DNA of 64,000 nucleotides. It comes from Rhodothermus profundi (lineage in GTDB: Bacteria > Bacteroidota > Rhodothermia > Rhodothermales > Rhodothermaceae). The stretch lies in NCBI RefSeq assembly GCF_900142415.1, contig NZ_FRAU01000003.1, positions 250,307 through 314,306 of the forward strand. Direction: 5' to 3'. Under the pieces are notes generated by a model. It had not been told where the DNA came from. It did no database searches and saw only the letters and a program-made list of their open reading frames with translations. Of this stretch, positions 5,743 through 58,348 are shown one piece after another. Position 1 is the stretch's first letter. Each line of letters opens with the position of its first letter. The position numbers and the translations under genes were made by a program.

Positions 5743-6579
5743 TTATAGGGACAGCCCTGCCAGTCGCTCGGCCAGCGGGCGAAGGAATCGATCGGGATCG
5801 AGCGGGCGGGTGGTGTCGGCCAAGGCGGCTTCGTCGAAGGCCAGCAGAGGACATATGATAGCTTCCTCCGACACCAGTGCGCGTCCGGTGCGGGTGTTAC
5901 CTTCTTCAAGTTGCAGGCGGGCGGCATCGGTTTTCGGTCGAGCGAACGGCCGGGCCTTTTCCAGCAGCAGACGGGCCGTCTGCGGATCGCCTGCCCGCCA
6001 GGCCAGATAGGCCTTCAGCACGTAGGCCGGTACGCTGCGGAAATTCATCGCCAACACCTTGTCAAAAAGACGGTCGGCCTCTTTCAGCCGTCCCTCCAGT
6101 AAGGCCACCTCGCCCAGATGCAGCACCGGTCCGCTGTCCTTGTTCAACGCCAGGGCGCGTTCAAAGGAAGCGCGGGCCGCTTTTAGATCAAACAACGGGC
6201 TTTCAGGATAGCACATCTGCAGCCGCCCGAGCTGCATGAAGGCCCGGTTGCTCCGGGGGTGTGCGGCGGCCAGCCGCTGCCATACCTGATAGGCGGCTTC
6301 CAGTCGCCCCAGTTCCAGATAGGTGTTTCCCAGGTAATAGAGCGCATTTTCATGCAGGCTGTCGAGGGCCAGCGCTTGCTGATAGAGCGAGACGGCCGCC
6401 TCCAGCTCACCGTTCAGACGTCGCTGCGTCGCTTCACGATACAGCTTCCAGAACTGGACGACGCGATTCCGTTCGGCTTCCGTTGCCTCGACCGACTCCG
6501 GCGATGTCGTATGTGAAGTGCATCCCGTGATCAGGATCACCCCGAGCCATCCAAGCCCGACAAGCAAGTTTCGCCACAT
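5743..6579 (-). CDS. TPR-repeat lipoprotein
   Basis: A 278-residue protein. The frame extends further upstream, but the start at 6579 is chosen because MWRNLLVGLGWLGVILITGC gives a lipoprotein signal (I-T-G-C). The body has tetratricopeptide repeats, for example AVSLYQQALALDSLHENALY, YLGNTYLELGRLEAAYQVW and ASFERALALNKDS, ending in a non-TPR tail. TPR proteins act as scaffolds, here probably on the periplasmic side of a membrane. It is the third gene of a - strand operon after the multihaem cytochrome and the FG-GAP/ASPIC-UnbV protein (14 bases between genes), so a role in assembling or docking those two is plausible. Confidence 0.85.
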   Translation of the reverse strand: MWRNLLVGLGWLGVILITGCTSHTTSPESVEATEAERNRVVQFWKLYREATQRRLNGELEAAVSLYQQALALDSLHENALYYLGNTYLELGRLEAAYQVWQRLAAAHPRSNRAFMQLGRLQMCYPESPLFDLKAARASFERALALNKDSGPVLHLGEVALLEGRLKEADRLFDKVLAMNFRSVPAYVLKAYLAWRAGDPQTARLLLEKARPFARPKTDAARLQLEEGNTRTGRALVSEEAIICPLLAFDEAALADTTRPLDPDRFLRPLAERLAGLSL

Positions 6580-6593
6580 TGCTTCTGGGTGCT

Positions 6594-8375
6594 TCAGGTC
6601 GTTGTGTCTTCGACGATGCGCACGATCTGGCGCGCCGGCACATCGGTCAGCACCTGGCGACGCCCGTTGCACGGCCAGACCACTTCAATCGTATCGACCT
6701 GCGCCGCCCTTCCCAGACCGAAGTGGGCCACGGGACTGTTCTGCGACAGGTACGTGCTCTGCGCTCCGATCTGCCGCACCTGAACCCGGCCGCCAGCTAC
6801 CACGCGTACCCGTGCTCCCAGCGCCATTCGGTTGCAAGAGCGGCTTTCGAGCGCCACCTCCAGCCAGCTGTTTCGGTTGCCGCCTTCGTTGCGGAGCAGT
6901 ACGCCCCGGCCGCTGTGATTCACCACGAAAATGTCCACGTCGCCGTCATTGTCGTAGTCCGCGAAGGCTGCGCCGCGTCCCACATAGAGCGAATCGAAGA
7001 AACTGCCGCTGACGGCCGACACCTCGTAGAAGCCATCTGCCCCCCGATTCCAGAAGAGTAAGTCCTTCTGGGGCACAAGCTGATGTGGCTGATCGCGCTG
7101 CTGGAGCGTGCTACCATTGGTTACGAACAGGTCAAGCCGTCCATCGTTGTCATAGTCAAAGAACGAGGTGCCCCATCCCACATAGTCGAGCGAGATCTGT
7201 CCGAGCCCGAACTGGTCGGCCTCATCGCGAAACCGCAGCGTGCCCTGCTCGCGCAGGAGATTGGTATACAGGGCATTTTCCTGGGCTACCCAGTGCGTCA
7301 GGAACAAGTCGAAATCCGTATCGCCGTCCCAATCGCCGACGGCAATGCCCATCGAGCTCCGGTAGTCCGCCACCAGTGCCGGATAGCTCAGGTCTTCGAA
7401 GGTGCCATCGCCCTGGTTTCGGAAGAACGTGTTATCCGACACGTCGTTGGCCACGTAGAGATCGAGCCACCCGTCTTCGTCCAGGTCAACCCAGGCGGCA
7501 CTGAGCCCTTTGCCTTCTGGATCGGCCACGCCGGCCCGGAAAGCAATCTCGGTGAACGTCCCGTCGCCATTGTTGCGATAGAACAGATTACGTTCCGGCT
7601 CAAACGTAGAGGGATTGATACCCGGTGGGTTTTCAATATCGAAGCCCAGCGCGGTGGAATCGTTGCGAACGGGCACGTAACGAACGTAGCCTGTGATATA
7701 GAGGTCAAGATCGCCGTCGTTGTCGTAGTCGCCCCAGGAAGCGCCGGTCCAGAAGCCTTCCGGACCGGCCAGGCCGGCTTTCCGGGTTACGTCCGTGAAC
7801 GTTCCGTCGCCATTGTTGTGGTAGAGCACGTTCTGGCCGAAGGCCGTCACCACCAGATCCGGCCAGCCGTCGTTGTCATAGTCGCCCCAGGCGGCTCCCA
7901 TGCCCCAGCCGCAGAAGCCTACACCGGCTGTTTCGGTGACGTCGGAAAACGTGCCGTCCCCGTTGTTGTGAAACAGTCGGTTGCAGGTGCCCGCCTGGCG
8001 CCCTTCTTCGGGCGTCATCGCGAGGGGCCCGATGGTGCTCACGACATAAAGATCCAGCCAGCCATCCCGGTCGTAGTCGCCCCAGGCGGCGCCGGAGCCC
8101 ATGTCTTCAGGAATCTGGCTGGTGCGCCGGCCTGCGAAATGCCGGAAATGAATGCCCGCCGCCTCCGTTACGTCTGCAAACGTAACCCGCGGATAATCTG
8201 GAGGAAGCGTCCGTTCCAGTCGGGCAACAATGCCCTCGACCTGTTCGCCCGGGCGATACGGCGCCTCCTCCCGCTCTGTCATGCTCCAGACCAGCACCCC
8301 ACCGCCCAGGCTGCCTGCGAGGACCATGCCCAGTGCCCACAACGCCCGGCGTTTTCTGCGCGAAAGCGGCCTCAT
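6594..8375 (-). CDS. FG-GAP/VCBS-repeat protein with C-terminal ASPIC/UnbV domain (CRTAC1-like)
   Basis: A 593-residue protein with an N-terminal membrane anchor or uncleaved signal (about 12-31) and a string of FG-GAP/VCBS repeats recognisable by the calcium-loop pattern D-Y-D-N-D-G-x-x-D-L (AAWGDYDRDGWLDLYVV, AAWGDYDNDGWPDLVV, ASWGDYDNDGDLDLYI and others). They alternate with HNNGDGTFSDVT segments and should fold as a calcium-stabilised beta-propeller. The end (about 500-590) is an ASPIC/UnbV domain (GARVRVVAGGRVQVRQIGA, SPVAHFGLG). Such proteins are extracytoplasmic and of unclear function. It starts four bases after the multihaem cytochrome stop, a strong sign of co-expression. Confidence 0.92.
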   Translation of the reverse strand: MRPLSRRKRRALWALGMVLAGSLGGGVLVWSMTEREEAPYRPGEQVEGIVARLERTLPPDYPRVTFADVTEAAGIHFRHFAGRRTSQIPEDMGSGAAWGDYDRDGWLDLYVVSTIGPLAMTPEEGRQAGTCNRLFHNNGDGTFSDVTETAGVGFCGWGMGAAWGDYDNDGWPDLVVTAFGQNVLYHNNGDGTFTDVTRKAGLAGPEGFWTGASWGDYDNDGDLDLYITGYVRYVPVRNDSTALGFDIENPPGINPSTFEPERNLFYRNNGDGTFTEIAFRAGVADPEGKGLSAAWVDLDEDGWLDLYVANDVSDNTFFRNQGDGTFEDLSYPALVADYRSSMGIAVGDWDGDTDFDLFLTHWVAQENALYTNLLREQGTLRFRDEADQFGLGQISLDYVGWGTSFFDYDNDGRLDLFVTNGSTLQQRDQPHQLVPQKDLLFWNRGADGFYEVSAVSGSFFDSLYVGRGAAFADYDNDGDVDIFVVNHSGRGVLLRNEGGNRNSWLEVALESRSCNRMALGARVRVVAGGRVQVRQIGAQSTYLSQNSPVAHFGLGRAAQVDTIEVVWPCNGRRQVLTDVPARQIVRIVEDTTT

Positions 8376-8379
8376 GGTC

Positions 8380-10383
8380 CTACGGTAGTACCTGAATGAC
8401 CAGGGAATCAGCCGACAACTCAGTCACCGGAGCCGTCAGCGTGGTGTCTGGGAACAGAAAATTGAGCAAGAACTGGTTCACCTTTCGGTAGCAGAGTCGG
8501 GCCTTTACGTGCAACTGACGGACGCCCGAGGGCACCGTAAACGCGTAACGGGCCTGATCGGCATAGCCCGGGAACATAGCCCGTTTATAGCGCACGCCCA
8601 CCATCTCCCAGAGGTTGTGCCGGTCGATCAGGTTGCCGTAGCGGTCCACGGGCTCTGCTTTAAAGACAAAGGAGCCCGGTTCGATGAAGGCGCGGTCGTC
8701 GAGCCGTCCGCTGGCAAACACCTCCCGGCCCTGCTCGTCGGTCACCACCAGTTCAACCCATGCCTGGATGATGTCCAGCGGCCCCGTCGGGAAATCATGG
8801 CCAGCTTTGTTATTCAGCAGCGCTACTTCTATGGTGATTGACTCGCCAGACCGGACACGGGTCGGCGCCAGCACCTGGATGGGGATGACCGGTCCGTTAC
8901 GCCACTTGTCAGCAATTTCTGGAATGTCGATCTCACCGCGAAGCCACTGCTCGACCAGCCGAGCCTGTTCTTTTCCGCCTGGTAGTTCCAGATGCGCCGG
9001 AATGAACTGGTTAGCACCCAGAAAACGATGGCTGCGGTGCTTGCCATCATCCGGCGAGCGGTTGTAGTCGAGCGCGTCACCCCGAGCCGGATCGAACGAA
9101 TCGACCAGGGGCATATGGCATTCCCGGCACTCAATGGTCTTGGCAGGATCGCCCGGATGATTCCAGCGGCTCTTGCGCCAGTTGTCGTACTGATTCTGCA
9201 GTTGAACCCATCCAACGTTGTTGATTTCTTCATCCACAAATTGCTTGTGGCAGGCCCCGCAGAATTCCGGGCTTTTGAACATGCGGCGGCTGAGGCTCTC
9301 GACGTGATGCTTTGGATAGGAGCGGATTAAAAAATTGCTAATCCATACGCCCACCCCGCTTGTATCTCGCTCGAACAAGTAGGGCTCGGGCGCATGAATC
9401 ACATAGTCTGCGTTGCCGCGCACGTCCACTTCCCGGATGGCATGACAGGTCACACACGAAACCCCTTCCTGCAGTCCGATAGGATTGGTCAGGTCATCGC
9501 GGAAAAGATTTTTCGTGCCGCTGAAAAGCGAGATCGGATCGTGGCATCCCCCACAGTAACGGGTTGATTCTGCGCCGTTTTGCGTCCCCATGACGTGCTG
9601 CACCCGACGAAACAGAGGATCTACGGCCGCATACCGGTGTGCGCTGGGCAGCCACTCCTGGTAAATCTGCTCGTGGCAGCCTGAACGCCCGCACGAGGCG
9701 GAGCCTCCCAGCATCTCAGCAGGGATAGCCTTGTTGTTTACGGTGCGCGCCAGGCTCGGCGCAAAAGGGCGGTCAGGCCCGTAGAGATAGCTATAGTCCG
9801 AAGGCAGATCCACATAGCGCACCGGCGCCCGATAGACATAAGCCAGGGCCACAACTACGCCAAACAGGCCCAGCGTCAGTCCGGTCACCGCCATCGAAAA
9901 GTGCCGCTGCGCCACCAAGACTGGCCGCATTGCTTCCCGCTTACGAGCGCGATGGTCGCGCACCATGATCCAGACCACGTGCGGCACAACGGTAACGATC
10001 AATGCGAAGGTAGCCCAGAGGTGCACCCGGCTCCATCCGTAGTGAATGCGCGTTCCCCAGAGCGCCTGTCCTGTTAGAACCAGCCCTGATACAATAGCGA
10101 CCAGCGTTGCGCCCATTCCGGCATAGCCCAGTACCACGAGATGATTCCAGGGCATGCGCCGGTAAACCCACCAGTGCCGCCCCTGATACCACAGGTAAGG
10201 CACTGTGAACACCAGCCCACCTGCCGTATGCAGCAGCACGATAACCTGACTGGACACGCTAAAAGGCAACAGGTAGATGCCCAGACCACTGATCGTCTCA
10301 AACAAGAGCAAGCCGCCTACCCACCACAGCAGACGACGCTGCCATTCTTGCGCCCGAGGATGGTCCGATTGCATAGCGTGCAT
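8380..10383 (-). CDS. Membrane-anchored multihaem c-type cytochrome with b-type-like membrane domain
   Basis: A 667-residue protein. Residues 1-190 hold about five membrane segments (near 19-40, 45-66, 82-105, 120-141, 163-184) with histidines H52, H121 and H135 inside or at the edges of helices, as in diheme b-type domains. The outside part carries five haem c sites: CGRSGCH (231-237, the CX4CH form), CGGCH (277), CVTCH (310), CGACH (375) and CRECH (419). It resembles cytochrome c554-like proteins. A beta-rich C-terminal domain follows from about residue 470. Inferred role: quinol oxidation at the membrane and electron transfer to periplasmic haems. ATG 10374 is an alternative start. First gene of a three-gene operon. 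Confidence 0.9.
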   Translation of the reverse strand: MHAMQSDHPRAQEWQRRLLWWVGGLLLFETISGLGIYLLPFSVSSQVIVLLHTAGGLVFTVPYLWYQGRHWWVYRRMPWNHLVVLGYAGMGATLVAIVSGLVLTGQALWGTRIHYGWSRVHLWATFALIVTVVPHVVWIMVRDHRARKREAMRPVLVAQRHFSMAVTGLTLGLFGVVVALAYVYRAPVRYVDLPSDYSYLYGPDRPFAPSLARTVNNKAIPAEMLGGSASCGRSGCHEQIYQEWLPSAHRYAAVDPLFRRVQHVMGTQNGAESTRYCGGCHDPISLFSGTKNLFRDDLTNPIGLQEGVSCVTCHAIREVDVRGNADYVIHAPEPYLFERDTSGVGVWISNFLIRSYPKHHVESLSRRMFKSPEFCGACHKQFVDEEINNVGWVQLQNQYDNWRKSRWNHPGDPAKTIECRECHMPLVDSFDPARGDALDYNRSPDDGKHRSHRFLGANQFIPAHLELPGGKEQARLVEQWLRGEIDIPEIADKWRNGPVIPIQVLAPTRVRSGESITIEVALLNNKAGHDFPTGPLDIIQAWVELVVTDEQGREVFASGRLDDRAFIEPGSFVFKAEPVDRYGNLIDRHNLWEMVGVRYKRAMFPGYADQARYAFTVPSGVRQLHVKARLCYRKVNQFLLNFLFPDTTLTAPVTELSADSLVIQVLP

Positions 10384-10491: not shown

Positions 10492-10517
10492 CCATGCTTT
10501 GCTTACGTAAAGCATGG
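10492..10517. promoter_or_regulatory. Perfect inverted repeat in the divergent promoter region of the cytochrome and efflux operons
   Basis: CCATGCTTT and AAAGCATGG are separated by eight bases and form a 9-bp perfect dyad. It lies 46 bases before the adaptor start at 10563 and about 110 bases before the cytochrome gene on the other strand. It could be an operator for a dimeric regulator or an RNA hairpin in the adaptor leader. Function is inference. Confidence 0.4.
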
Positions 10518-10562
10518 CATCGCTGCCCAGAGCAACATGGTGCAACAACTCATGGGAATATC

Positions 10563-11687
10563 ATGAAACGCGCACTCTGGCTACTGACGGGGCTGGTGCT
10601 TGTTGCCGCGCTGGCATTTTTGGTGTTTTCCTCTGACAGTGGACAGGCGGCGGAAACGGTACCGACGGTTACGGTAAGGCGGGGCGAGATTGTTGACAAG
10701 GCGCTGGCGGTTGGGACCATTGAGCCCCGCGTTGAGATCAGCATTAAGTCTCAGGTGGCCGGGGTTGTGCGTCAGTTGTTCGTAGAGGCCGGCGATTATG
10801 TGGAGGCTGGAACGCCCCTTCTGGAGATTCAGCCCAATCCCACTCCCCAGGAGCTTATTGAAGCTGAGCGGCGGCTCCAGTTGCGTGAGCTTGAAGTAGC
10901 AACGCTATATCGAGAATTTCAGCGGCAGCAGCAGCTTTTTGCGCGCAAGCTGATTTCGGAGCAGGAGTACGAGCAGGCCCGTCAGGCGTACGAAGAGGCC
11001 CAGCTCCAGCTTCAGATGGCCCGAGAGCAACTGGCCCTGTTGCGCGAAGGCCGGGTGCGCACCGAGTCGGGCCAGGTGGAGACAGTCGTTCGCGCGCCGA
11101 TCAGCGGCTACATTCTGGAGAAGATGATCGAAGTGGGCGACCCGGTGGTGCCGCTTACCTCCTATCAGGAGGGTACGGTATTGATGACCATGGCAGATAT
11201 GAGCGACCTGGTCTTTCGGGGCACGGTAGACGAAATCGACGTAGGCCGCCTTCAGGAGGGCATGACGGCCCAGATCAAGATCGGTGCGTTGCCGCAGGCG
11301 CAGGTAACCGGTCGCCTGTCGAAAATCTGGCTCAAAGCCCGAAAAGAAGAAAATACCACAGTTTTTCCGGTGGAAATTGAAATCATCGAGGCCGTTATGC
11401 GGGACCCGCGCGACCCGGAAGGCGCTCCTCGTCCGCTGGTACTTCGGGCCGGGTACTCGGCTAACGCAGAAATCATTATCGAAAAACGCGAAAACGTCCT
11501 TCTTATTCCGGAGCGTGTGATCACCTACAGCGGTGACACGGCGCGCGTGACAGTGGTGCTTCCGGACGGCACGACCGAAACGCGCGTCATCCAGACCGGC
11601 CTCAGCGACGCGCTGCACGTCGAAGTAGTAGCAGGACTGGAGGAAGGCATGAAGGTGCAGGAAAAACCGCTACCGCAAATTCAATGA
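10563..11687 (+). CDS. Periplasmic adaptor (membrane fusion) protein of a MacA/HlyD-type exporter
   Basis: A 374-residue protein. ATG 10563 is preferred over the in-frame ATG 10494 because it begins directly with the signal/anchor MKRALWLLTGLVLVAALAFL. Next come a barrel-sandwich lipoyl half (VEISIKSQVAGVVRQLFVEA, GDYVEAGTPLLEI), a coiled-coil hairpin rich in E, Q and L (about 100-160), the second lipoyl half (VVRAPISGYILEKMIEVGDP) and beta-barrel domains. Family role: links an inner-membrane MacB-like permease to an outer-membrane channel. Two permease genes follow at once (four bases, then six), but there is no ATPase and no TolC-like gene in the window. Confidence 0.92.
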   Translation: MKRALWLLTGLVLVAALAFLVFSSDSGQAAETVPTVTVRRGEIVDKALAVGTIEPRVEISIKSQVAGVVRQLFVEAGDYVEAGTPLLEIQPNPTPQELIEAERRLQLRELEVATLYREFQRQQQLFARKLISEQEYEQARQAYEEAQLQLQMAREQLALLREGRVRTESGQVETVVRAPISGYILEKMIEVGDPVVPLTSYQEGTVLMTMADMSDLVFRGTVDEIDVGRLQEGMTAQIKIGALPQAQVTGRLSKIWLKARKEENTTVFPVEIEIIEAVMRDPRDPEGAPRPLVLRAGYSANAEIIIEKRENVLLIPERVITYSGDTARVTVVLPDGTTETRVIQTGLSDALHVEVVAGLEEGMKVQEKPLPQIQ

Positions 11688-11691
11688 GGCC

Positions 11692-12924
11692 ATGCGCTGG
11701 CTGCCCACCCTGGAGCAGTTACTACACGATTTGAAGGCGCAGCGGCTGCGCACGACGCTTACGGTCCTGGGGATTACCTGGGGCACCGTGGCCGTCGTGG
11801 TGCTCCTGGCCTTTGGCGTGGGCTTTGAGCGGCAGACGCGCAAGAACATGCACGGCATGGGCGAAGGCATTGTCGTGCTCTTTGCCGGTGTAACCACCCG
11901 GCCTTTTCAGGGATACCCCGACGGCCGGCCTATTCGACTCCGCGAGGAGGATGCCTGGCTGCTTCAGCGCGAAATTCCGGCGATTGCTGCCATCAGCCCT
12001 GAATACCTGAACCGCCAGACACCGGTGCGGCGAGGCCGTGCCATCACCAATCCAGCTATTACCGGTGTTTATCCAGCGTATGGACACCTGCGCAACATCA
12101 TTCCAGAGCCGGGCGGACGCTTTTTGAACGAACAGGATTTGAAGCGACGTCGCCGGGTCGTCGTGCTGGGAGATCAGGTGAAACAATTACTATTTGGCAG
12201 CGAAAATGCGGTAGGTCAGCAGATCTACATTGGTCAGACGCCCTTTCTGGTGGTGGGCGTCATGCAACCCAAAACGCAGGCCAACTCCTATTACGCACGC
12301 GACGCCGACCGCATTTTTATTCCAGCTTCGACGTTCCGCGTGCTCTTTGGCGATCGCTACGTAAACAACCTGGTCTATCGCCCCGTTGACCCGGACCTCA
12401 GTCCGCAGATAAAACGGGCCGTCTATACGACTCTGGGGCGCCGCTACCGCTTTGATCCTGCCGACGAAGACGCCCTGGGCATGTGGGATACCAACGAAGC
12501 AGACCGATTCGTCAAGTATTTCTTCCTGGGGTTCAATCTGTTCATGGGACTGATCGGCAGCTTTACGCTGACGGTGGGAGGCATTGGCGTAGCCAACATC
12601 ATGTATGTGGTAGTGCAGGAGCGCACGCGGGAGATCGGCATCAAACGAGCCGTGGGTGCCCGGCGCCGGGACATCCTGGGACCGTTCTTCTTAGAAACGT
12701 TCCTGATCGTAGCGATAGGCGCATTGCTGGGATTCTTTATCGCTTACGGCCTCATCCAGATAGCAAGCGCCCTGCCGTTCCAGGAAGCAATAGGGCGCCC
12801 GGAGCTCTCTCCAGCGGTCGTTATCGTAACGGTGGGCTTGTTGCTTCTGATCGCCCTGCTGGCGGGCTACTTTCCGGCCCGTCGCGCTGCTCGCCTTGAC
12901 CCTGTGGAATGCCTTCGTCACTAA
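11692..12924 (+). CDS. MacB/FtsX-like ABC exporter permease, first copy
   Basis: A 410-residue permease with the MacB architecture: a first membrane helix after an amphipathic start (TTLTVLGITWGTVAVVVLLA), a large periplasmic MacB-PCD domain (about 50-270, including GRFLNEQDLKRRRRVVVLGD and VGQQIYIGQTPFLVVGVM), then three membrane helices in the FtsX domain with the coupling motif RTREIGIKRAVGARRRDI and the end ARRAARLDPVECLRH. No nucleotide-binding domain is fused to it. It is clearly paralogous to the next gene, so the pair probably makes a heterodimer. Substrate unknown; family members export peptides, lipoproteins or small toxic molecules. Confidence 0.92.
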   Translation: MRWLPTLEQLLHDLKAQRLRTTLTVLGITWGTVAVVVLLAFGVGFERQTRKNMHGMGEGIVVLFAGVTTRPFQGYPDGRPIRLREEDAWLLQREIPAIAAISPEYLNRQTPVRRGRAITNPAITGVYPAYGHLRNIIPEPGGRFLNEQDLKRRRRVVVLGDQVKQLLFGSENAVGQQIYIGQTPFLVVGVMQPKTQANSYYARDADRIFIPASTFRVLFGDRYVNNLVYRPVDPDLSPQIKRAVYTTLGRRYRFDPADEDALGMWDTNEADRFVKYFFLGFNLFMGLIGSFTLTVGGIGVANIMYVVVQERTREIGIKRAVGARRRDILGPFFLETFLIVAIGALLGFFIAYGLIQIASALPFQEAIGRPELSPAVVIVTVGLLLLIALLAGYFPARRAARLDPVECLRH

Positions 12925-12930
12925 CGCGCT

Positions 12931-14175
12931 ATGTGGAAAATTCTGCTTCAGGAATTCTGGCACGATCTGAAGGGGCAGCGGCTGCGCGCCTTTCTCACGT
13001 TGTTTGCCATCACCTGGGGCACCCTTTCGGTAGTGTTACTGCTGGCCTTTGGAGAGGGGTTGGGCCGCACGCTGGTTAATGGATTCCTGAACACAGGCGA
13101 TCACATCTTCATGATTTACGGAGGCGAAACCAGCAAAGCGTTCGAAGGACTGCCCAAAGGGCGGCGCATTCGCCTGGTGCGGGAAGACCTAGATCTGTTG
13201 CTCCGCGCCGTGCCCGCATTGGCATCGGGCAGCGTTTCCTATGGACGCTGGGGTACCATCCTGGAGGCCGGCGACGTGCGCACTTCAACCTATATGGAAG
13301 GCGTTGACCCAGCATTTGAGCTGCTACGCCGCGCCTATCCTGTTCGGGGCGGCCGTTTCTTAAACGAGGAGGATCTGCGCCGCAAACGACGCGTCGTGTT
13401 CCTGGGCGATGAACTGGCCCGCCGACTCTTTGGCACGCAGGATCCTGTAGGTCAAACCGTCCACATCGACGGCCTCCCCTTCACCGTCGTGGGCGTCATG
13501 CAGCCCAAGCTGCAGACGACCATGCACAACGGTCCCGATGCCCTGCGGGCCATCATTCCGTCCACCACGTTTGAAGCCATCTACGGCTATCGTTACGTCG
13601 GCCATTTACTGGTGCGCCCTCGCAGCGCAGGCGAAGCAGAACGGGTCAAGCAAGAAATCTATCGCGTGCTGGGCCGCCGCTACCAGTTTGACCCCACCGA
13701 TGAACGTGCGCTTGTCATTTGGGACTTTATCGAGCAGGTTCGCATCCTTAACCGCATCACCCTGGGTATTCAGATTTTCCTGGGACTGGTAGGTGGGCTG
13801 ACGCTCCTCCTGGCCGGTGTAGGGGTAGCCAACATTATGTATGTATCGGTGCGCGAGCGCACGCGTGAGTTTGGCATTAAGCGGGCTCTTGGAGCCCGTC
13901 GGCGTGTCGTGCAGCTTCAAGTGATCTTCGAAGCATTGCTGATTGCGCTTGCAGGCGGCGCCATCGGTCTGTTCATTTCCTGGGCGCTGGTTGAAGCCGT
14001 GCGCCATCTTCCTGCTAAAGAAGGGGCGCTAGAATTTCTGGCCAATCCTGTTCTTTCCTTACCCATTGCTCTGCTGACCGTAGGCCTGTTGACCTTGATC
14101 GGGCTGGCAGCCGGTCTCTTCCCGGCCCGTCGCGCCGCTCGGGTCGATCCCGTTGAAGCGCTGCGCTACGAGTAA
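12931..14175 (+). CDS. MacB/FtsX-like ABC exporter permease, second copy
   Basis: A 414-residue permease with the same layout as its upstream neighbour: a helix near residues 20-45 (FLTLFAITWGTLSVVLLLAF), a periplasmic domain with GRFLNEEDLRRKRRVVFLGD, and a three-helix FtsX domain with RTREFGIKRALGARRRVV and the end ARRAARVDPVEALRYE. The two share order, length and many exact stretches and so arose by tandem duplication. It begins six bases after the first permease stop. The ATPase that must power them is not in this window. No terminator was seen in the 220 bases before glnA. Confidence 0.92.
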   Translation: MWKILLQEFWHDLKGQRLRAFLTLFAITWGTLSVVLLLAFGEGLGRTLVNGFLNTGDHIFMIYGGETSKAFEGLPKGRRIRLVREDLDLLLRAVPALASGSVSYGRWGTILEAGDVRTSTYMEGVDPAFELLRRAYPVRGGRFLNEEDLRRKRRVVFLGDELARRLFGTQDPVGQTVHIDGLPFTVVGVMQPKLQTTMHNGPDALRAIIPSTTFEAIYGYRYVGHLLVRPRSAGEAERVKQEIYRVLGRRYQFDPTDERALVIWDFIEQVRILNRITLGIQIFLGLVGGLTLLLAGVGVANIMYVSVRERTREFGIKRALGARRRVVQLQVIFEALLIALAGGAIGLFISWALVEAVRHLPAKEGALEFLANPVLSLPIALLTVGLLTLIGLAAGLFPARRAARVDPVEALRYE

Positions 14176-47059: not shown

Positions 47060-48355
47060 TCAGATAAGTCCGAGCAGACGTGGTAGCCAGAGGGACAGTC
47101 CGGGAATGAACGTTACTGCCAGAAGAGCAACGAGCAGGGCAATGTAGAAAGGCAGCAATGGACGTACAACCTGCGTGACAGGTACTCCTGCTATGCCACA
47201 TCCAGCAAATAGCACCGTTCCGACCGGCGGAGTGCACAATCCAATACACAGGTTCACTACCATTAGAATTCCGAAGTGCACGGGATCTATCCCCATTTCC
47301 ATTGCTGTTGGCAACAGAATTGGCGTGAAGATAAGAATGGCCGGCGTCATATCCATAAATGTTCCTACGACTAACAACATTACATTGACAAGGAGCAAAA
47401 ACACAACTGGATTTTGCCCTAAGGCGATTAAAGCTTCTCCTACGGCCTGCGGCACGCGTTCAAGCGCCAGAGCCCAGGACAGGGCCATACTGGTGGCAAT
47501 GAGAAGCATGACGACAGCCGTTGTCTTGGCAGAATCTAAAAGCACCTCAACCAGTTCAGAGAGGCGAAGGGCGCGATAGATAACAGTAGACAGCACCAAT
47601 GCATAAACGACAGCGATGGCGGCTGCCTCGGTTGCAGTAAAAATACCTGCTACGATGCCGCCGATCACGACAACAATCAATCCCAGGCTCGGCAGCGCAT
47701 CCAGAAAGCATCGAAACAGTTCGCGTAGCGGAACGCGCTCGCTTGCCCCGAACCCCTTGATGCGAGCAACCACCCCGGCTACAATCATCAGTACCAGGCC
47801 CATAAGAATACCGGGCAGATATCCCGCCACAAAAAGCGCAGCTACTGAAAGTCCTCCGGAGGCCAGAGAGTAGACAATCAGCACGTTTGAGGGGGGAATC
47901 ACGAGCCCTGTTGTGGCGCTCGACACGTTAACAGCTACGCTATAGCCCGGACTGTAGCCGGACGTCACCATCCGTGGATGCATTACACTTCCGATCGCGG
48001 CAGCTGATGCAATAGCACTGCCACTGATAGCTCCAAAAAACATGTTAGAAATAATGTTAACAAAGGCAAGCCCGCCAGGCAGGCTACTCACGAGCGTTCG
48101 GGCCAGCACAATCAGCCGTTGCGTGCTGCCACCTCGCCCCATGAGATTTCCTGCCAGGATAAAAAACGGAATGGCCAGCAGGGTAAACGAATCGAGTCCG
48201 GTGGCCACGCGTTGCGCTATGGCACTAACAGAAGGGGTAAAGTCCATGATGACCAGAAGAAAAAAGAGGGTAGATAGGCCGATGCAAAATGCTACCGGCA
48301 CATTAAGCAAAAGCAAGCCCAGAAAAGAGAGAATGAGGACGATTACTTCCATCAT
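47060..48355 (-). CDS. dctM: TRAP transporter large membrane subunit
   Basis: 431 residues with about 12 membrane helices and the DctM family signatures: PFFILAGNLMGRGGSTQRLI, VNIISNMFFGAISGSAIASA, TTGLVIPPSNVLIVYSLASG and MVVNLCIGLCTPPVGTVLFA. It is the channel of a sodium-driven tripartite uptake system for organic acids. The start overlaps the dctQ stop by four bases. In this locus, between lyases and a KDG-pathway kinase and reductase, the likely cargo is an unsaturated uronate or its keto product. That is inference. Confidence 0.93.
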   Translation of the reverse strand: MMEVIVLILSFLGLLLLNVPVAFCIGLSTLFFLLVIMDFTPSVSAIAQRVATGLDSFTLLAIPFFILAGNLMGRGGSTQRLIVLARTLVSSLPGGLAFVNIISNMFFGAISGSAIASAAAIGSVMHPRMVTSGYSPGYSVAVNVSSATTGLVIPPSNVLIVYSLASGGLSVAALFVAGYLPGILMGLVLMIVAGVVARIKGFGASERVPLRELFRCFLDALPSLGLIVVVIGGIVAGIFTATEAAAIAVVYALVLSTVIYRALRLSELVEVLLDSAKTTAVVMLLIATSMALSWALALERVPQAVGEALIALGQNPVVFLLLVNVMLLVVGTFMDMTPAILIFTPILLPTAMEMGIDPVHFGILMVVNLCIGLCTPPVGTVLFAGCGIAGVPVTQVVRPLLPFYIALLVALLAVTFIPGLSLWLPRLLGLI

Positions 48356-48837
48356 ACATCAACATGCTGTTTTCTATTGTAGTTCAACATGAATATGATA
48401 GCATAAAAAATCAGAAGCAGACCACTTATAGGCAGGACAGCATATATATATCCAATAGGAATACGCAATGCGGCAGACGTCTGATGTAGAGCCAGAGTTA
48501 TATATACCAGTCTAATTCCCCCTATGACCAGGGCGAGCAGCGAAAAAATAATAACAGCAACTCCTTGAATATAAACTGTTACACGTCGACCGAGTGGCTT
48601 CATCATCCGATATAAGAAGTCAATGCCCAGATGGGCTCCTTTCCGATAGGCATAAGCTGCTCCTATCAAGGAAATCCATATAAGCAGATAGGTAGAAAGT
48701 TCTTCGGTAAACGAACTGGGATTGTTCAAAACGAAGCGGGTAAATACCTGCCATGTCACCACCATTACCATGGTGGCCATCAGCAATACCAGGGTATACT
48801 CGACGATCCGATCAATGCGTGTAGCCAGCCTTTCCAT
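48352..48837 (-). CDS. dctQ: TRAP transporter small membrane subunit
   Basis: 161 residues with four membrane helices (YTLVLLMATMVMVVTWQVFT, LLIWISLIGAAYAYRKGAHL, GVAVIIFSLLALVIGGIRLV, IGYIYAVLPISGLLLIFYAI). The DctQ signature is RFVLNNPSSFTEELSTYLLI then AYAYRKGAHLGIDFL. It begins three bases after dctP and overlaps dctM by four. The DNA here is visibly AT-richer than housekeeping genes in the window. Confidence 0.92.
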   Translation of the reverse strand: MERLATRIDRIVEYTLVLLMATMVMVVTWQVFTRFVLNNPSSFTEELSTYLLIWISLIGAAYAYRKGAHLGIDFLYRMMKPLGRRVTVYIQGVAVIIFSLLALVIGGIRLVYITLALHQTSAALRIPIGYIYAVLPISGLLLIFYAIIFMLNYNRKQHVDV

Positions 48838-48840
48838 AGG

Positions 48841-49851
48841 TTACTCCTGCGTAAGGGCTGTAGGCCGGGCAACGGACCGAATCGCGGCAGCCAGTTCTCC
48901 CAGGACGGTGCCCTGAAGTTCTCTATAAAGCGGTGCCACTGCTGCGCGAAACGGTGCTTTATCGGGATGATAGATCGTTACCCCTGCTTCCTCAAGCGCC
49001 TGCAGCGCCGAGGCGGTAGCTTCCTCCCAGAGCTTCCGCTGGTAGGGAACCGACGCAGCTACGGCTAGCTCCACCCATCTTTTTTGTTCGGCAGAGAGCT
49101 GTTCCCAGCGCCACGTCGAAATCAGTAGCACATCAGGGGGCGCGGAATGTTCGTCCAGGGTATAATACTTAGCTACCTCATAGTGTCTGGTTAGATAAAA
49201 GTTAGGCGGATTATTTTCAGCGCCATCAATGACGCCCTGTTGCAGGGCAGTATACACCTCACTGAAGGCAAGCGGCACAGCGCTTCCTCCCATGATATTA
49301 ATCGATCGAACAGAAAAATAACTGCGCATTACCCGGATTTTTAATCCCTTAAGATCCTCAGGAGTTTGTATCAGGCGATTTCGCACATAAAAAGATCGAA
49401 ATCCAGCATCATAATAACAGAGTCCACGTATGCGTTTCTTTTCTCCGGCCAGTAAAATGCGCTTCCCTATTGGTCCCTCCAACACCCGCCATAGATGATC
49501 TGCATCATCAAATAAATAAGGCAGGCTAAAAACACTCATTTCAGGTACAAAATTCTCAAGAACGGCTGAAGAAACTTTTGCCATGTCAAGTACGCCGAGT
49601 TGCAACAGCTCTATGGTTTCACGTTCAACGCCAAGCTGCGCGTTCGGGTAGATCTCAACGCGCATGGTACCTCCGGAGAGTTCTTCCAGCCGCTCGGCGA
49701 AGCGTTCCATGCCCCGGTGCACAGGATGGGTAGGGCCCAGCACGTGAGCAAGGCGCAGCACAATGACCTCCTCACCTGTTCCAGCACATCCTATTAGAAC
49801 AATGCCCACTAAACTTATTGACAAAAGGAAGCGAACGTTTTGCACCAGCAT
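48841..49851 (-). CDS. dctP: TRAP transporter substrate-binding protein (lipoprotein form)
   Basis: 336 residues. A lipobox (GIVLIGC, C22) makes this a lipid-anchored binding protein. Family signs: LRLAHVLGPTHPVHRGMERF, the carboxylate-binding region LKGLKIRVMRSYFS with the conserved arginine, and VYTALQQGVIDGAENNPPNF. DctP family members bind C4-dicarboxylates, sialic acid or uronates; the locus argues for a uronate product. It starts three bases after the upstream lyase stop, so lyase and transporter are one operon. Confidence 0.92.
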   Translation of the reverse strand: MLVQNVRFLLSISLVGIVLIGCAGTGEEVIVLRLAHVLGPTHPVHRGMERFAERLEELSGGTMRVEIYPNAQLGVERETIELLQLGVLDMAKVSSAVLENFVPEMSVFSLPYLFDDADHLWRVLEGPIGKRILLAGEKKRIRGLCYYDAGFRSFYVRNRLIQTPEDLKGLKIRVMRSYFSVRSINIMGGSAVPLAFSEVYTALQQGVIDGAENNPPNFYLTRHYEVAKYYTLDEHSAPPDVLLISTWRWEQLSAEQKRWVELAVAASVPYQRKLWEEATASALQALEEAGVTIYHPDKAPFRAAVAPLYRELQGTVLGELAAAIRSVARPTALTQE

Positions 49852-49854
49852 ACG

Positions 49855-52482
49855 CTAAAACACAAAGCTTTGCACAGTCCGCTGTTTACTTCCAGCTACT
49901 ACCCTGATCCAGTACGGACCAGGAGTAAGTTTTCTCTGAAGCACCTTGCCGACATCCCACATGATCTCTGTCTCGCCCGCCGATAGCCTCCCTTCCCACA
50001 GCACAGTAATGCGGCGTCCCAGAGAGTTGTAAAGAACCACCTGAACGTGCTCGGGATGAGCCAGGAAGATGCGCAGGCGCGTTGTTCCTGAAGTTGGGTT
50101 AGGATACGGCCCGCTTACCACAAATGCGGGATTCGTTTTTTCGACGTCGTCGATGTCTGTTGCCACATCCGTAGCGATGACAATGGTGCTTCCAGGACGT
50201 AGCAGGTTACCAGCAAGTTGAAAGCGGACTTGCCCCTGCTCCGGCATTTCAAAGGCGAGCGGCTGCCCGTCAAGCGTCACCGAGAGCGGCGTTGCAGACG
50301 GAGAAACCAGTTGCAGCGTCAACGTTGCGGTCCCTTCAAACGCTTCCACATGCACTGTATGTCGTGCAGGATCAGAACGATCTACCGCAACGGTGAGCGG
50401 AATGGTAGCAGTAAACAAGGTAGCTCCCTCCCACTGAAGCGTCTGTCCCTCCGTAAGCGCAAACTGCACCACTGTATCCAAGACGCGTCTTGTCCAGGCA
50501 AAAGTAGCATCAGTGGCCAGCGGTCCGGCCGCCCGCACCCTCTGATCCCGCTGGACCGCCACATTGGTGGTGCTTTCCTGGTCTGTTAACTCGATGCTCA
50601 CCATCCCCGCTACGCTCTGGTCCATAAACAGGGGAGGGTTTTCGTCCACCTCAGCAGGATAAAGCACGTGCAGAAAAACCGGATCGTTCGCCTGTTGCCG
50701 CACCGCAATGTACCGCTGCTCCTCCTCGTGCCCCCAGAAAAAGCTTGTCCATCCCTCCGCTTCCGTGATGGTCAGCGTCCGATTTCCTACAAAAGCTGCA
50801 TACAGGCGTCCTCCTTCTCCGTAGGTATCCTCGGGCGCAGTCCATATCATCCAGGGGTCATCGCGCGAAAAAACTCCTCGACCATGTAAATAAACCTGAT
50901 AATTAGCGGTATTTTCTGACGTACCTATGTCATAAACGACCCAGAAACGATTTTCAAGAAAGGCGATGCCGCGACGCACTTCAGCCCCTCCGGCTACTCC
51001 CCGACTGATGGCCTCCATTTCAGCAAAATCGTAAAACGGTGTATCAAGCGCATGGCGCATGCGAGGCCCTTCATTCTGCGCGGTGCTGTAGTCTTCCAGG
51101 GGAAAACCATTAACGGTGATTGTATTATGCGCCTGAGGGGATACGTACCAGGCGCGTCGATCATCGTTGAAGCCTCGCGGCCCATACCCTGCATCTACCG
51201 CAAGAGGTGTATTGTTGGCTTCCAACAGGTAGGAAAGATGATCAGGGTGGTCATGATTGTCCGCGGAAGCGACGCCATGAAATAGCAAATAGCGTGACGT
51301 TACTCCTGCGTCATGCCAGGCGTTACGGAACACGACCTGCCCACTTTGGAGGATCTGGGTCGGCGAAACATCTGGCGCTGTTGCAGGAATGCTGGCGTCC
51401 CACGACAACAGGACATCAATTTCCCAGGTTACGTCTCTCGTTGCTCCCGTGTAGTTCTGGGTAAAGAAACGCGTAGTTTGCCAGTTCCACTGTAGAATTT
51501 CTGCCAGGGGGGCACTGGTGTGCAGCAGAGTTGGCGTGTCTCGGTAGGCAGCCGCTACGGCATGGGTAGGCGCGGGCTTCATATACCCATCTTCAATGTT
51601 GGGCATCCACCCCCGGCCATTTCTAATCCGAACGGGCCACTCAAAAGCTGGTTGATAGTAAGGAAACAGATTTACGCCTGATACATGAAGATAATGCCAG
51701 AGAAAAGGGATCGCATTTACTAGCGTAAAGACGTAATAATGGGGGCCCTCCCGATAAACGCCTTCGTTGCTGAACATATACTTTGTAACTGTGTTCTGGC
51801 GATCCAACGCGAATGACAGCCAAGCCGCTGCATCTGGATGACTGGAAAGCGTTAACGCTGCTGTACCAAGGGCATAGGCTGGTTTTGAACGATGGTTATG
51901 CGGACGCGGCGCATATTGGTCCATGTAGGTATACAGCAACTGCGCTTCGGCAACCAGCTTAGCCCGCAGCTCTGCTTCTAACGCAGAGGGAAGTTGATCA
52001 TATAGCCAGTCGTAAGCTGCACAATAATTTTGAAGCCAGGTAGCCCGATATATTTCATCGTATTCTCCGTCAAAAACCCCGGGCCCATAAGTCTGAGGTA
52101 CATTGTCATAGGCAATATCTAACGTAGCAAGTGCTTTGACAAGTGCCACGAGATCGCCTTCCATTAACCAGGCAAAAGCTAGCGTTTTAGCCATTCGAGC
52201 TCGCTCGCCAGGACTCGTAGCCCGGGGATCTCGGTTTTTGAAATCACGAATATCTTTCTTGATTTCATTAACGAGTTCTGCGTAAGCAGGATCAGTCCAT
52301 CGGGCTCTAATTATATCCAGATCCTCTTCGGAAAACCAGAGCGAAGGATGCTCTTCTGTTTCTGGAAGAATTGCTTCCGTAGGAACGACAAATCCGGTGT
52401 ACGTATCATATTGACTCTGAGCCAGAGACGACCAGGTCAACACGCAAAACCAACCAATCGTATTTATTCGATAAAATCGCAT
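49855..52482 (-). CDS. Heparinase II/III-fold polysaccharide lyase with type IX secretion signal
   Basis: 875 residues. A signal peptide (cut near LAQSQ) is followed by an alpha/alpha-barrel domain (about 50-360) with N196-H197 in PHNHRSKP and GVYREGPHYYVF, and a beta-sandwich domain with DNHDHPDHLSY (408-418) and SPQAHNTITVNG (H452). These follow the layout of PL15/PL17/PL39-type lyases. A type-A sorting domain closes the protein from about residue 790 (GPYPNPTSGTTRLRIF, VVLYNSLGRRITVLWEG, QRTVQSFVF). It is secreted and probably the enzyme that attacks polymer outside the cell. PL family is uncertain. It is first in a tight operon with dctPQM. Confidence 0.87.
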   Translation of the reverse strand: MRFYRINTIGWFCVLTWSSLAQSQYDTYTGFVVPTEAILPETEEHPSLWFSEEDLDIIRARWTDPAYAELVNEIKKDIRDFKNRDPRATSPGERARMAKTLAFAWLMEGDLVALVKALATLDIAYDNVPQTYGPGVFDGEYDEIYRATWLQNYCAAYDWLYDQLPSALEAELRAKLVAEAQLLYTYMDQYAPRPHNHRSKPAYALGTAALTLSSHPDAAAWLSFALDRQNTVTKYMFSNEGVYREGPHYYVFTLVNAIPFLWHYLHVSGVNLFPYYQPAFEWPVRIRNGRGWMPNIEDGYMKPAPTHAVAAAYRDTPTLLHTSAPLAEILQWNWQTTRFFTQNYTGATRDVTWEIDVLLSWDASIPATAPDVSPTQILQSGQVVFRNAWHDAGVTSRYLLFHGVASADNHDHPDHLSYLLEANNTPLAVDAGYGPRGFNDDRRAWYVSPQAHNTITVNGFPLEDYSTAQNEGPRMRHALDTPFYDFAEMEAISRGVAGGAEVRRGIAFLENRFWVVYDIGTSENTANYQVYLHGRGVFSRDDPWMIWTAPEDTYGEGGRLYAAFVGNRTLTITEAEGWTSFFWGHEEEQRYIAVRQQANDPVFLHVLYPAEVDENPPLFMDQSVAGMVSIELTDQESTTNVAVQRDQRVRAAGPLATDATFAWTRRVLDTVVQFALTEGQTLQWEGATLFTATIPLTVAVDRSDPARHTVHVEAFEGTATLTLQLVSPSATPLSVTLDGQPLAFEMPEQGQVRFQLAGNLLRPGSTIVIATDVATDIDDVEKTNPAFVVSGPYPNPTSGTTRLRIFLAHPEHVQVVLYNSLGRRITVLWEGRLSAGETEIMWDVGKVLQRKLTPGPYWIRVVAGSKQRTVQSFVF

Positions 52483-52533
52483 AGTATCCTGGTATTGGAT
52501 GAACTGATTTCAGGTATGCTCTAACTTAATACT

Positions 52534-52564
52534 CCAAAATATTTCCCTCTTTCATTACCCCAAA
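52534..52564 (-). promoter_or_regulatory. Bacteroidota-type promoter for the lyase-dctPQM operon
   Basis: On the - strand TTTG (52564-52561), a 19-base spacer, then TATTTTGG (52541-52534), close to the TTTG-N19-TAnnTTTG consensus with one mismatch. It leaves about 50 bases to the start at 52482. Confidence 0.45.
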
Positions 52565-52608
52565 TGCATATCTACAATGGATGCCATTTGAGGAATAGCT
52601 CGGCGTGC

Positions 52609-53367
52609 TTAGACGAAGTAGAGTCCTCCATTAATCTCCAGCGATTCACCATTGATATAAGCAGCCAGATCTGAAGCGAGAAAGACGACGCTGGACGCAA
52701 CCTCCCATGCTTCGCCCTCACGTCCCGCAAGCGTTGCCCTGGCTACTTGCTGACGCACTTCCTGGGGCGTAAATCGATCATGGAATGTGGTATTGATCAG
52801 TCCAGGCGATACGCAGTTGACGCGAATTTTACGCCTGGCCAACTCTTTGGCCAGACCTCGGGTAAATGATAAAACTCCTCCTTTTGCTGCCGCATATGCC
52901 ACAGCACCATTTCCTCCGCCATTTCGCGCAGCCAGTGACGCAACGTTGACGATCGCACCGCCATCGTTGAAGTGCTTCAGCGCGGCCTTTGTGACCAGGA
53001 AAACGCTTTTCAGATTCACATTAATAACCTGATCCCACAATTCTTCAGGCATATCTATGATGGATGAACGCCGCACAAGACCACCCGCGTTATTAATCAG
53101 AATGTCGAGGTTGCCTCCGAGCTGTCGCACAGTCTCTTGAACCATCCGTTCCACTTCGTCTGGCTTGGTGACGTCCGCCTGCACTGCGACAGCAACGCCC
53201 CCCTTGGCGCGAATGCGCTGCACTACCGCTTCGGCACTTTCCCCCGACATGCGGTAGTTCACGGCCACATGGGCGCCGCTGCAGGCTAACGCCTCTGCAA
53301 TGGCACGGCCAATATCACGGCCTGCTCCGGTGACCAGCGCTCTTTTGCCTGTGAGGTCGATCTTCAT
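52609..53367 (-). CDS. Short-chain dehydrogenase/reductase, probable DEH/uronate reductase
   Basis: 252 residues. Cofactor motif TGAGRDIGRAIA (13-24), NNAG (92-95), and catalytic S144, Y158 and K162 (AVAYAAAKGG), ending in ESLEINGG. All expected classical SDR residues are present. In alginate loci this position is filled by DEH reductase, which turns 4-deoxy-L-erythro-5-hexoseulose uronate into 2-keto-3-deoxygluconate. The assignment rests on neighbours: lyases on both sides and a KDG-type kinase in the same locus. It starts 49 bases after the PL17 gene. Confidence 0.88.
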   Translation of the reverse strand: MKIDLTGKRALVTGAGRDIGRAIAEALACSGAHVAVNYRMSGESAEAVVQRIRAKGGVAVAVQADVTKPDEVERMVQETVRQLGGNLDILINNAGGLVRRSSIIDMPEELWDQVINVNLKSVFLVTKAALKHFNDGGAIVNVASLAARNGGGNGAVAYAAAKGGVLSFTRGLAKELARRKIRVNCVSPGLINTTFHDRFTPQEVRQQVARATLAGREGEAWEVASSVVFLASDLAAYINGESLEINGGLYFV

Positions 53368-53416
53368 CGTTACTCCGTTTTGCTATTTTAACGATCCCTT
53401 ACTTTCCAGCTTCACC

Positions 53417-55648
53417 TCAATCGTGGAACGAAGAGCCAGACGCGACAGCAACTCCTTCGACGGCATAGTTTCCCGTCCACGTAAAGGTGCGTCCGCCAAA
53501 CGTAACGGTGTGCCGCGCCTCCGGATTATCCGGCCCGTTGGTGACCATTATGGTCCACCGCCATCCTCCTTTGCCGACCACCTCCACGACACTGGCCGCT
53601 TCGTTATGCCCCACGACTCGGACCGTTTTGATCTGCGGCCGAGCCTGGAGGCTAACTTCACGAGCCTCATGGAAATAGCCATGTGGCTCGATAACGCTTG
53701 CAAACAGATGCGTCTTCGCCCAACGACGGACCAGTATGAGAGGCTCTCGGCGCAGGTTAAAATGGGGATCATTCGCTCCAATACGCCCCAGAATCACCTG
53801 CGTCGCTGGAGCAGCGGCAACCGTCCAGGTGTAATAGCGATGCCCATCCAGCCAGGTGAACTGAATGACGCTGTCCGTACGCGCCTGCGCTTCTTTCCAG
53901 ATGTGCTGGTATCCGTAGTCAGCCCCCAGCGGCCGAAGCTGTTCGGTATAGCTCTGAAGGCGCACATTTGTCCAGATAGGCTGTCCCAGAAAGTGGATCG
54001 GATAATCATACTGGTGCGTGCTATCCGAAACCACGCGGTATAGATCCACTACGACCGGATAGTCCAACCGACTGTCTTCAATAAGCAGCAGCGTGCGTTG
54101 CATATTCACCCCGGGCCAATAGCCGTTAGCACGGGCACTCATGGCCTGAACAGGCCCTTTCCCATCAAAGAAGTGGCGTTCTCCTGACAGGGTCTCGGCT
54201 ATCTTCGGATCGGCTCGATTCTGACTGATCTCATCTACCACAACGGTATTGTGGGCAATCGTCTGCTTTGCATAACTATTATTTTCGGGCAGATAACGCC
54301 CTCCGTATTTGGGCTCCACATTAATGAACCGAGCAAACCCATAATCCCTGATCACCTGCCGCCCCCCATCGTAGAGCATGAAGTGTAATTTGTCAAAATG
54401 TCCGTGGCCCATTCCATGCGCGCCGTACTTCATGAGCACGACGGTCTGCTGGCGCCCTGTGCCTGCCCGCAGCAACCCGATTCCCCCTCGTTTACCATCG
54501 GCCCCATCCGTGAACTCAATGCTGGGCCATGTCATCTGGGGCACGGCAGCAGCTTCCGCATAAGCTTTTGCTACGGCCAGCCCGGCGCCGTTGAGAATCA
54601 CCTGTCCCTGCTCGCGAACAACACCGAGCAGCGCAGCATCTCCGCCGTAGCGCGCAAAAACCACGTTCGTCCCCAGCACCACGCCCGGTGCCTTCACGTT
54701 CATTGTTAACGAAGCATCATTGATAGGGGGAAAGACCCCATCGGGGAAGGTGGTCTGGACGGTAGCATAAAGGGCCTTTTTGAGAATGCTATCGCGATAA
54801 GCATAAATGCCCCGCTCGGGCTCATTCCGCTCAATTGCTTCCGCAAAGAAAAAGAGCGGCCAGAGCGCATAGCGGGCATAGTAAGGGCCTTCTACATAAT
54901 ACCCATCCGGCGAAAAAAGTTGATCAAGCTGAGCGAAAAAGCCAGCGCTTCCATCTTTTTTCGTGCCATAAAGTGCCTTCTCTACCCACTCGGGTTCCTC
55001 TATCACATAGCCCGTCATGCCCACCGCCGCGACCGCCCAAATGCCGTGATTGTGAATCTTGTCGAACTCCCGAGCCCCTTCGTTTACAATCCAGGAAGCC
55101 ATGGGGCGCAGTACGCTGGTTTCGATATGCGCCCGCTCTTCTTCGCTCAGCCAGTTATAAATGGCATCGTATGCGATAACGGTGTGCACCAACCAGACGC
55201 ACTCGTTAAGCAACTGATGAAACAGCTTTCCCGGAACCTGGCGCTCGCTACGTGGATGCGGCCCCAATTCAGGGTACATGGCCGCATAGGCCATGAGCAT
55301 ATCTCTTACAAACCGGGCATAACGCGCATCACCGGTAATTTGAAAGAGCAGCCCTGCCTTATACATATCCCGGTAGTTCTGCTTGTGCCGTTCGTGCGCA
55401 TAGCCTCCCGCTTCTCCAGGAGGCGGAACGTCCATGGGATGCGACAGGGCCGCCTCCACCTCAACCCGGACCTGCCCCAGAGTGGTATCAAGCAATGCAT
55501 AGTGCCCGATTGCCTGACGGATCGCGGCCGCCTCTGCCGCTGTAATGAACAGCCGCGGATGCTGCTGGGCATACCCGGCCTCCAATCCTCCCACAACCAG
55601 CCCACAGAGACCAATCTGAATGGCGCGTCTTATCATATAATACATCAT
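53417..55648 (-). CDS. PL17-type oligoalginate lyase (heparinase II/III fold)
   Basis: 743 residues; ATG 55636 is an equally good start. A signal peptide ends in GYAQQ. The (alpha/alpha) domain has KIHNHGIWAVAAVG with N200-H201 and GYYVEGPYYARYAL with the tyrosines near 256-260, equivalent to the Asn-His and Tyr of characterised PL17 enzymes. The beta domain has AHGMGHGHFDKLHF (410-423; zinc-type histidines), NSYAKQTIAHNTVVVDE (Y459, H466) and a long sandwich. It is exolytic on oligomannuronate in known members, releasing monomer. It has no type IX signal and so is probably periplasmic. Confidence 0.9.
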   Translation of the reverse strand: MMYYMIRRAIQIGLCGLVVGGLEAGYAQQHPRLFITAAEAAAIRQAIGHYALLDTTLGQVRVEVEAALSHPMDVPPPGEAGGYAHERHKQNYRDMYKAGLLFQITGDARYARFVRDMLMAYAAMYPELGPHPRSERQVPGKLFHQLLNECVWLVHTVIAYDAIYNWLSEEERAHIETSVLRPMASWIVNEGAREFDKIHNHGIWAVAAVGMTGYVIEEPEWVEKALYGTKKDGSAGFFAQLDQLFSPDGYYVEGPYYARYALWPLFFFAEAIERNEPERGIYAYRDSILKKALYATVQTTFPDGVFPPINDASLTMNVKAPGVVLGTNVVFARYGGDAALLGVVREQGQVILNGAGLAVAKAYAEAAAVPQMTWPSIEFTDGADGKRGGIGLLRAGTGRQQTVVLMKYGAHGMGHGHFDKLHFMLYDGGRQVIRDYGFARFINVEPKYGGRYLPENNSYAKQTIAHNTVVVDEISQNRADPKIAETLSGERHFFDGKGPVQAMSARANGYWPGVNMQRTLLLIEDSRLDYPVVVDLYRVVSDSTHQYDYPIHFLGQPIWTNVRLQSYTEQLRPLGADYGYQHIWKEAQARTDSVIQFTWLDGHRYYTWTVAAAPATQVILGRIGANDPHFNLRREPLILVRRWAKTHLFASVIEPHGYFHEAREVSLQARPQIKTVRVVGHNEAASVVEVVGKGGWRWTIMVTNGPDNPEARHTVTFGGRTFTWTGNYAVEGVAVASGSSFHD

Positions 55649-55666
55649 ACATGTTATTTAAGCCTA

Positions 55667-55695
55667 AAGGTAACGTGCTTCTTTTCCTCAGTCAA
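55667..55695 (-). promoter_or_regulatory. Candidate promoter of the PL17-SDR operon
   Basis: On the - strand TTGACT (55695-55690), a 17-base spacer, TACCTT (55672-55667). The -10 also reads TACCTTTA, near the Bacteroidota TAnnTTTG. It lies about 20 bases ahead of the first PL17 start codon. The remaining bases to 55851 contain only a 7-bp hairpin (55790-55806). Confidence 0.45.
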
Positions 55696-57255: not shown

Positions 57256-57279
57256 CGTGTGGCATGCCGTTTTGACCTT

Positions 57280-58332: not shown

Positions 58333-58348
58333 TTTATATTACAGGATT

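Follow-up and report, generated by a model that had tools for sequence, protein, structure and literature searches.

A widespread operon pairs a predicted membrane-bound pentahaem cytochrome with a CRTAC1-type propeller and a TPR protein

Fusion of a b-type membrane domain to a multihaem domain is known from Geobacter CbcL, in which a di-haem b domain is followed by a multihaem domain with nine haem c, and Alternative complex III has a pentahaem subunit. The pentahaem cytochrome (PHC) family, according to the accessible part of one paper, groups the fold of Thermochromatium tepidum c552 with Geobacter ExtKL and Gsu2801 (PMC11976967). In the same part, the small and large pentahaem cytochromes of cable bacteria (sPHC and lPHC) are placed among cytochromes with one or more five-coordinate haems, and a comparison is drawn between pentahaem relatives and archaeal cytochrome nanowires (PMC11976967). 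CRTAC1-type FG-GAP genes were reported in 2025 beside hydrazine-synthase-like clusters, in a paper whose available passages do not mention the cytochrome trio described here (PMC12758564). The trio is likewise undescribed in the available passages of open-licence PubMed Central papers.

The operon was examined in a window of 64,000 nucleotides from Rhodothermus profundi (contig NZ_FRAU01000003.1, positions 250,307 to 314,306), and all coordinates below without a locus or contig label are those of the window. On the minus strand, reading from 10383 to 5743, the order is cytochrome, propeller, TPR lipoprotein. The membrane b/c-type pentahaem cytochrome (8380..10383, 667 aa) was assigned from Pfam, motifs and a structure model, the FG-GAP/UnbV propeller of CRTAC1 type (6594..8375, 593 aa) from Pfam and a structure model, and the TPR-repeat lipoprotein (5743..6579, 278 aa) from an ATG at 6579, Pfam TPR and the sequence LITGC, which we take to be a lipobox. 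Matches above the Pfam cut-off were Cytochrome_C554 for the first protein, FG-GAP_3 and UnbV_ASPIC for the second and TPR for the third. A longer reading frame for the TPR gene, from a GTG at 6672, would overlap the propeller gene. The cytochrome and propeller genes are separated by 4 bases (8376-8379) and the propeller and TPR genes by 14 bases (6580-6593), and these coordinates agree with the preliminary description, which had the three genes bound together by gaps of 4 and 14 bases. An HlyD/MacB-type ABC export set (10494-14175) is divergent from the cytochrome gene, with an upstream region common to both. The G+C content is lower over the final 16 kb of the window (48001-64000), at 0.49-0.57 against about 0.60 before, and this DNA was possibly acquired.

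The structure model of the cytochrome (mean pLDDT 86.4, pTM 0.82) has five long N-terminal helices, residues 17-38, 43-74, 81-109, 115-145 and 150-183. His52 and His70 lie on helix 2 and His121 and His135 on helix 4; all four are invariant in 31 of 31 members, paralogues included, and are candidate haem b ligands. By analogy with known di-haem b proteins, their arrangement would be that of two trans-membrane haem b. The membrane half (17-183) has weak similarity to DUF4405 in 25 of the 31 members and to prokaryotic cytochrome b561 in 12, and it appears to be a b561/DUF4405-like domain; the R. profundi protein itself scored 10.8 bits against DUF4405, under the Pfam gathering score of 26.7. Lysine and arginine number 7 in loop 4-5, 3 in loop 2-3, 1 in loop 3-4 and 0 in loop 1-2. 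Positive charge is thus highest in the would-be cytoplasmic loops, which puts the haem c domain on the periplasmic side.

The soluble half consists of a pentahaem domain (about 223-495) and a strand-rich C-terminal Ig-like domain (about 496-667). It contains five haem c motifs, C231GRSGCH, C277GGCH, C310VTCH, C375GACH and C419RECH, the first of which (residues 231-237, 9673..9693 on the minus strand, recognised by motif) has CX4CH spacing. Both parts of the initial picture of this protein, about five membrane helices with in-membrane histidines and five haem c sites with one CX4CH, were therefore recovered. Foldseek matched the soluble half with T. tepidum c552 (5ze8, E 7.1e-10); the structural alignment covered 334 residues, model residues 223-663, with a Z of 22.2 and an rmsd of 3.5, and 5ze8 was the sole PDB sequence reached by profile (E 5.7e-08). 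Ig-like domains aligned to residues 496-667, and the alignment to 5ze8 reached residue 663. Judged from the model, the cytochrome is a membrane domain fused to the PHC fold of Thermochromatium c552. CcmE is encoded elsewhere in the genome, on contig C2, which makes system I maturation likely, and ResB was not found in a search of this genome.

Comparison with the described systems places the protein as follows. It has both hallmarks of the PHC family (5ze8, ExtKL, Gsu2801, sPHC/lPHC), the PHC fold with its five haem c motifs and a C-terminal Ig-like domain, but differs in the fusion to a membrane domain of five helices, for which two haem b sites are predicted, and in having a propeller gene next to it. 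Its first haem site is CX4CH, where 5ze8 aligned with two residues fewer. The ExtKL equivalog NF040886 gave 40 bits against a curated cut-off of 250 and covered only the C-terminal residues 515-635, so the protein is not an ExtKL by this measure. Like CbcL-type fusions it has a b-type membrane domain and then a periplasmic multihaem domain; unlike CbcL it has five haem c in a PHC fold, with propeller and TPR partners, and it does not belong to that type. Alternative complex III was not among the sequence or fold matches listed for the cytochrome, with which a distant kinship would be compatible. The window cytochrome represents a new pentahaem branch, to which a CRTAC1-type partner is dedicated.

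Over its full length the propeller matched the fold of mouse CRTAC1 (9etn, E 1.1e-32, TM 0.70/0.75), and it scored 74.9 bits for UnbV_ASPIC (cut-off 23.4). On the model it is a CRTAC1 fold, with six DxDxDG-type motifs that are presumably calcium sites. The enediyne proteins UnbV/UnbU are a possible parallel. Aldos-2-ulose dehydratase (4a7k) was also among the fold matches, and a sugar-enzyme role suggested by that match is only a lead. Two features set the window protein apart from CRTAC1/ASPIC-UnbV propellers in general: a membrane helix predicted at its N-terminus (6-31) and its strict pairing with a multihaem cytochrome. In a propeller tree the cytochrome partners lay apart from 22 of 23 other sequences, though with a weak split support of 0.42, and the exception was the partner of a broken cytochrome (locus L073).

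Conservation was followed by scanning genome contigs, which gave 248 relatives, and the counts that follow refer to the best 80 of these; this choice, together with peptide patterns taken from the window protein, favours near relatives. By record title the 80 come from Gemmatimonadota, Acidobacteriota, Bacteroidota, Planctomycetota, Verrucomicrobiota, Marinimicrobia, KSB1, Latescibacterota, Poribacteria and others, and the mean pairwise identity of the cytochromes is 56% (73 of the 80). None of the 80 has lost any of the four membrane histidines or of the five haem motifs, and His249, His360, His452 and His529 are likewise present in all; His589 is kept in 79/80 with one gap and His449 in 77/80. 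CX4CH spacing at the first haem site was found in 79/80, and the exception is a Balneolaceae locus (L067, 7980-10061) with CGSCH at that site. A propeller reading frame lay 3' of the cytochrome by a fixed rule in 77/80, with its start no more than 30 bases from the cytochrome stop in 62 of the 77. Two of the remaining contigs (L066 and L099) stop 154 and 160 bases past the cytochrome, leaving no room for a propeller, and in L073 the cytochrome is split into two reading frames with a propeller after the second. Thus the propeller adjoins the cytochrome in 78 of 78 testable loci. Chance adjacency or an assembly artefact is ruled out by this count, and also by the eight of eight ortholog-bearing genomes in a set of 60 relatives that includes R. 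profundi; together with the invariant histidines and haem motifs and the CX4CH count, the adjacency shows that these features are not due to chance.

The TPR component is more variable in form. By the fixed rule it is a separate gene in 36 of the 77 loci, fused to the propeller (judged by length) in 26, cut by the contig end in 12 and missing in 3. Of these three, L041 has a TPR gene one propeller further on, L042 has 126 bases left, and L054 has no TPR by Pfam. Pfam placed TPR after UnbV in every one of five long propeller proteins examined. Over 73 loci the distances between cytochromes correlate with those between propellers (r 0.85, where 500 permutations gave no more than 0.19), a correlation that shared species history may also cause. 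The operon is real, deeply conserved and widespread, and the trio is old. Its co-occurrence elsewhere, raised as a check at the outset, was thus found outside this genome and in many phyla, and the refuting outcome named there, a trio confined to this genome, did not arise.

Paralogues of the cytochrome were examined in the 60 relatives, where 31 paralogue-type matches were counted by hand. The second cytochrome of R. profundi is 34% identical, has a C-terminal TPR domain and also has CX4CH; at this identity a paralogue may not share the function of the window cytochrome. It is followed by a propeller lipoprotein and then a TPR lipoprotein, in a same-strand run with SusC, SusD, two long UnbV proteins, a 3-keto-disaccharide hydrolase, a GFO/IDH/MocA protein and a sugar isomerase-like protein. 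The run (contig C8:55754-89159; L117:755-15753, L107:1014-19160) also contains a glycosidase, and it resembles a locus for sugar utilisation that has a membrane cytochrome to itself. With up to 22 candidates scored per genome, a propeller lies beside the paralogue on the same strand in at least 16 of the 31 and on the opposite strand in 2. In six genomes, all of one family, the propeller is replaced by a gene for an exported-type FAD_oxidored protein, which lies directly upstream of the paralogue (L109:7021-11307; L011, L018, L019, L022, L023 and L024), and the start of this protein is presumably a twin-arginine-like motif. Since its partners vary, the cytochrome looks like a module for exchangeable periplasmic partners. 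Soluble pentahaem relatives with no membrane domain were also seen (L110:2808-4475 and L111:7790-9646), with five CXXCH and a Met aligned at His249.

A link to hydrazine synthase was found in one genome. In a Marinimicrobia genome (L041/L139) a single same-strand run, L139:2201-14546, leads from the trio through two more UnbV propellers to hydrazine-synthase-like genes; in it an alpha-like protein matched 5c2v_A (E 6.9e-23) and a fused beta-gamma-like protein matched 5c2v_B (4.9e-47) and 5c2v_C (1.9e-22). The presence of a CRTAC1-type FG-GAP gene beside haem-protein genes is shared with the reported hydrazine-synthase-like clusters, as far as the available passages go (PMC12758564). The R. profundi locus differs in that HZS_alpha (PF18582) has no match in the genome and tblastn of HZS-like queries found no such gene within the window. 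Such genes lie near the trio in 1 of the best 80 of 248 loci, and a weak match was seen at the edge of L097. HZS_alpha occurs somewhere in 8 of 24 trio-bearing genomes but near the trio in only one, so the link was rejected as a general rule. Among the 60 relatives PF18582 was found in 3, one of these below the cut-off, and by ORF labels propellers adjoin 5 of 9 HZS_alpha places.

Recurrence of the cytochrome-propeller pair across many phyla suggests that the two proteins probably work as one electron-transfer machine, and electron transfer is the likely work of the trio. Our preferred reading, with a probability of roughly 0.55, is that the trio encodes one quinone-linked complex of the cell envelope, with a periplasmic partner held on the propeller and TPR proteins. 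The four histidines of helices 2 and 4 would ligate two haem b that span the membrane and are in contact with the quinone pool, electrons would then pass to or from the five periplasmic haem c, and the propeller, anchored beside the cytochrome, would form with the TPR protein or domain a platform for a soluble redox partner or substrate. A single complex is supported by TPR fusions, which involve the propeller in 26 loci (judged from length) and, in the R. profundi paralogue, the cytochrome. A point against it is that no constant enzyme gene adjoins the orthologous trio. The neighbour survey took in 108 upstream and 78 downstream reading frames, of which 66 and 56 were run against Pfam, the omitted ones being mostly short, and besides UnbV/FG-GAP (9 upstream, 4 downstream) no family was found in more than 3 neighbours.

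An unlikely alternative is that the cytochrome itself acts on a small molecule, as a periplasmic reductase driven by quinol or as an oxidase, at a haem that lacks a sixth ligand, the propeller and TPR proteins being accessory or structural. Pentahaem cytochromes of cable bacteria are classed with five-coordinate haems in the accessible part of PMC11976967. His589 is not conserved in the paralogues, which leaves four distal histidine candidates common to orthologs and paralogues for five haems. However, the orthologs keep five histidines outside the motifs, across the haem and Ig-like domains, so that all five haems could be bis-His, and the neighbouring genes suggest no substrate.

Less probable again is a conduit exporting electrons to the cell surface. 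The pentahaem relatives include Geobacter ExtKL and have been compared with archaeal cytochrome nanowires (PMC11976967, accessible part), the C-terminal similarity to ExtKL exists although below the cut-off, and one partner is a predicted lipoprotein. This lipoprotein is the TPR protein only. The propeller has no lipobox and its helix 6-31 predicts an inner-membrane-type anchor, so that it would most simply lie in the periplasm with its anchor in the inner membrane. No outer-membrane porin family was among the most frequent neighbour families, and Rhodothermus is an aerobe. Haem handling or cytochrome biogenesis instead of electron transfer is very improbable: the TPR protein matched the CcmH/CycH TPR domain below the cut-off, as many TPR proteins do, but CcmE is encoded elsewhere and the cytochrome has a pentahaem fold with invariant haem motifs. 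Thus, of the membrane-to-surface electron-transfer or haem-handling complex first proposed, the electron-transfer complex is well supported by the invariance of the two predicted haem b and five haem c sites and by a partner gene conserved across phyla, while the surface location is not borne out and haem handling is unsupported.

For the quinone-linked complex, the flavoprotein partner and the sugar-utilisation neighbourhood of the paralogues, together with the di-haem b layout, lean slightly towards inward flow, in which periplasmic oxidation would reduce quinone; given that flavoproteins can also be reductases, this is a lean and not a result. The single Marinimicrobia locus with hydrazine-synthase-like genes would suggest outward electrons.

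A wider and more tentative proposal, which we hold to be possible though short of probable, is that CRTAC1/UnbV propellers of about 550-600 aa are general dedicated subunits of periplasmic multihaem redox complexes, including the membrane pentahaem cytochrome, its TPR-fused paralogue and hydrazine-synthase-like enzymes, and that the trio is an undescribed quinone-linked respiratory complex of many phyla. Soluble members of the pentahaem family figure in discussions of extracellular electron transfer and of conduction in cable bacteria, and the family now gains a branch that is membrane-bound and probably quinone-facing. It also follows that a haem site with CX4CH spacing can be constant throughout a family. 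UnbV/ASPIC (CRTAC1) proteins are a common bacterial family usually annotated without function, and their strict cross-phylum pairing with a cytochrome gives them a testable role.
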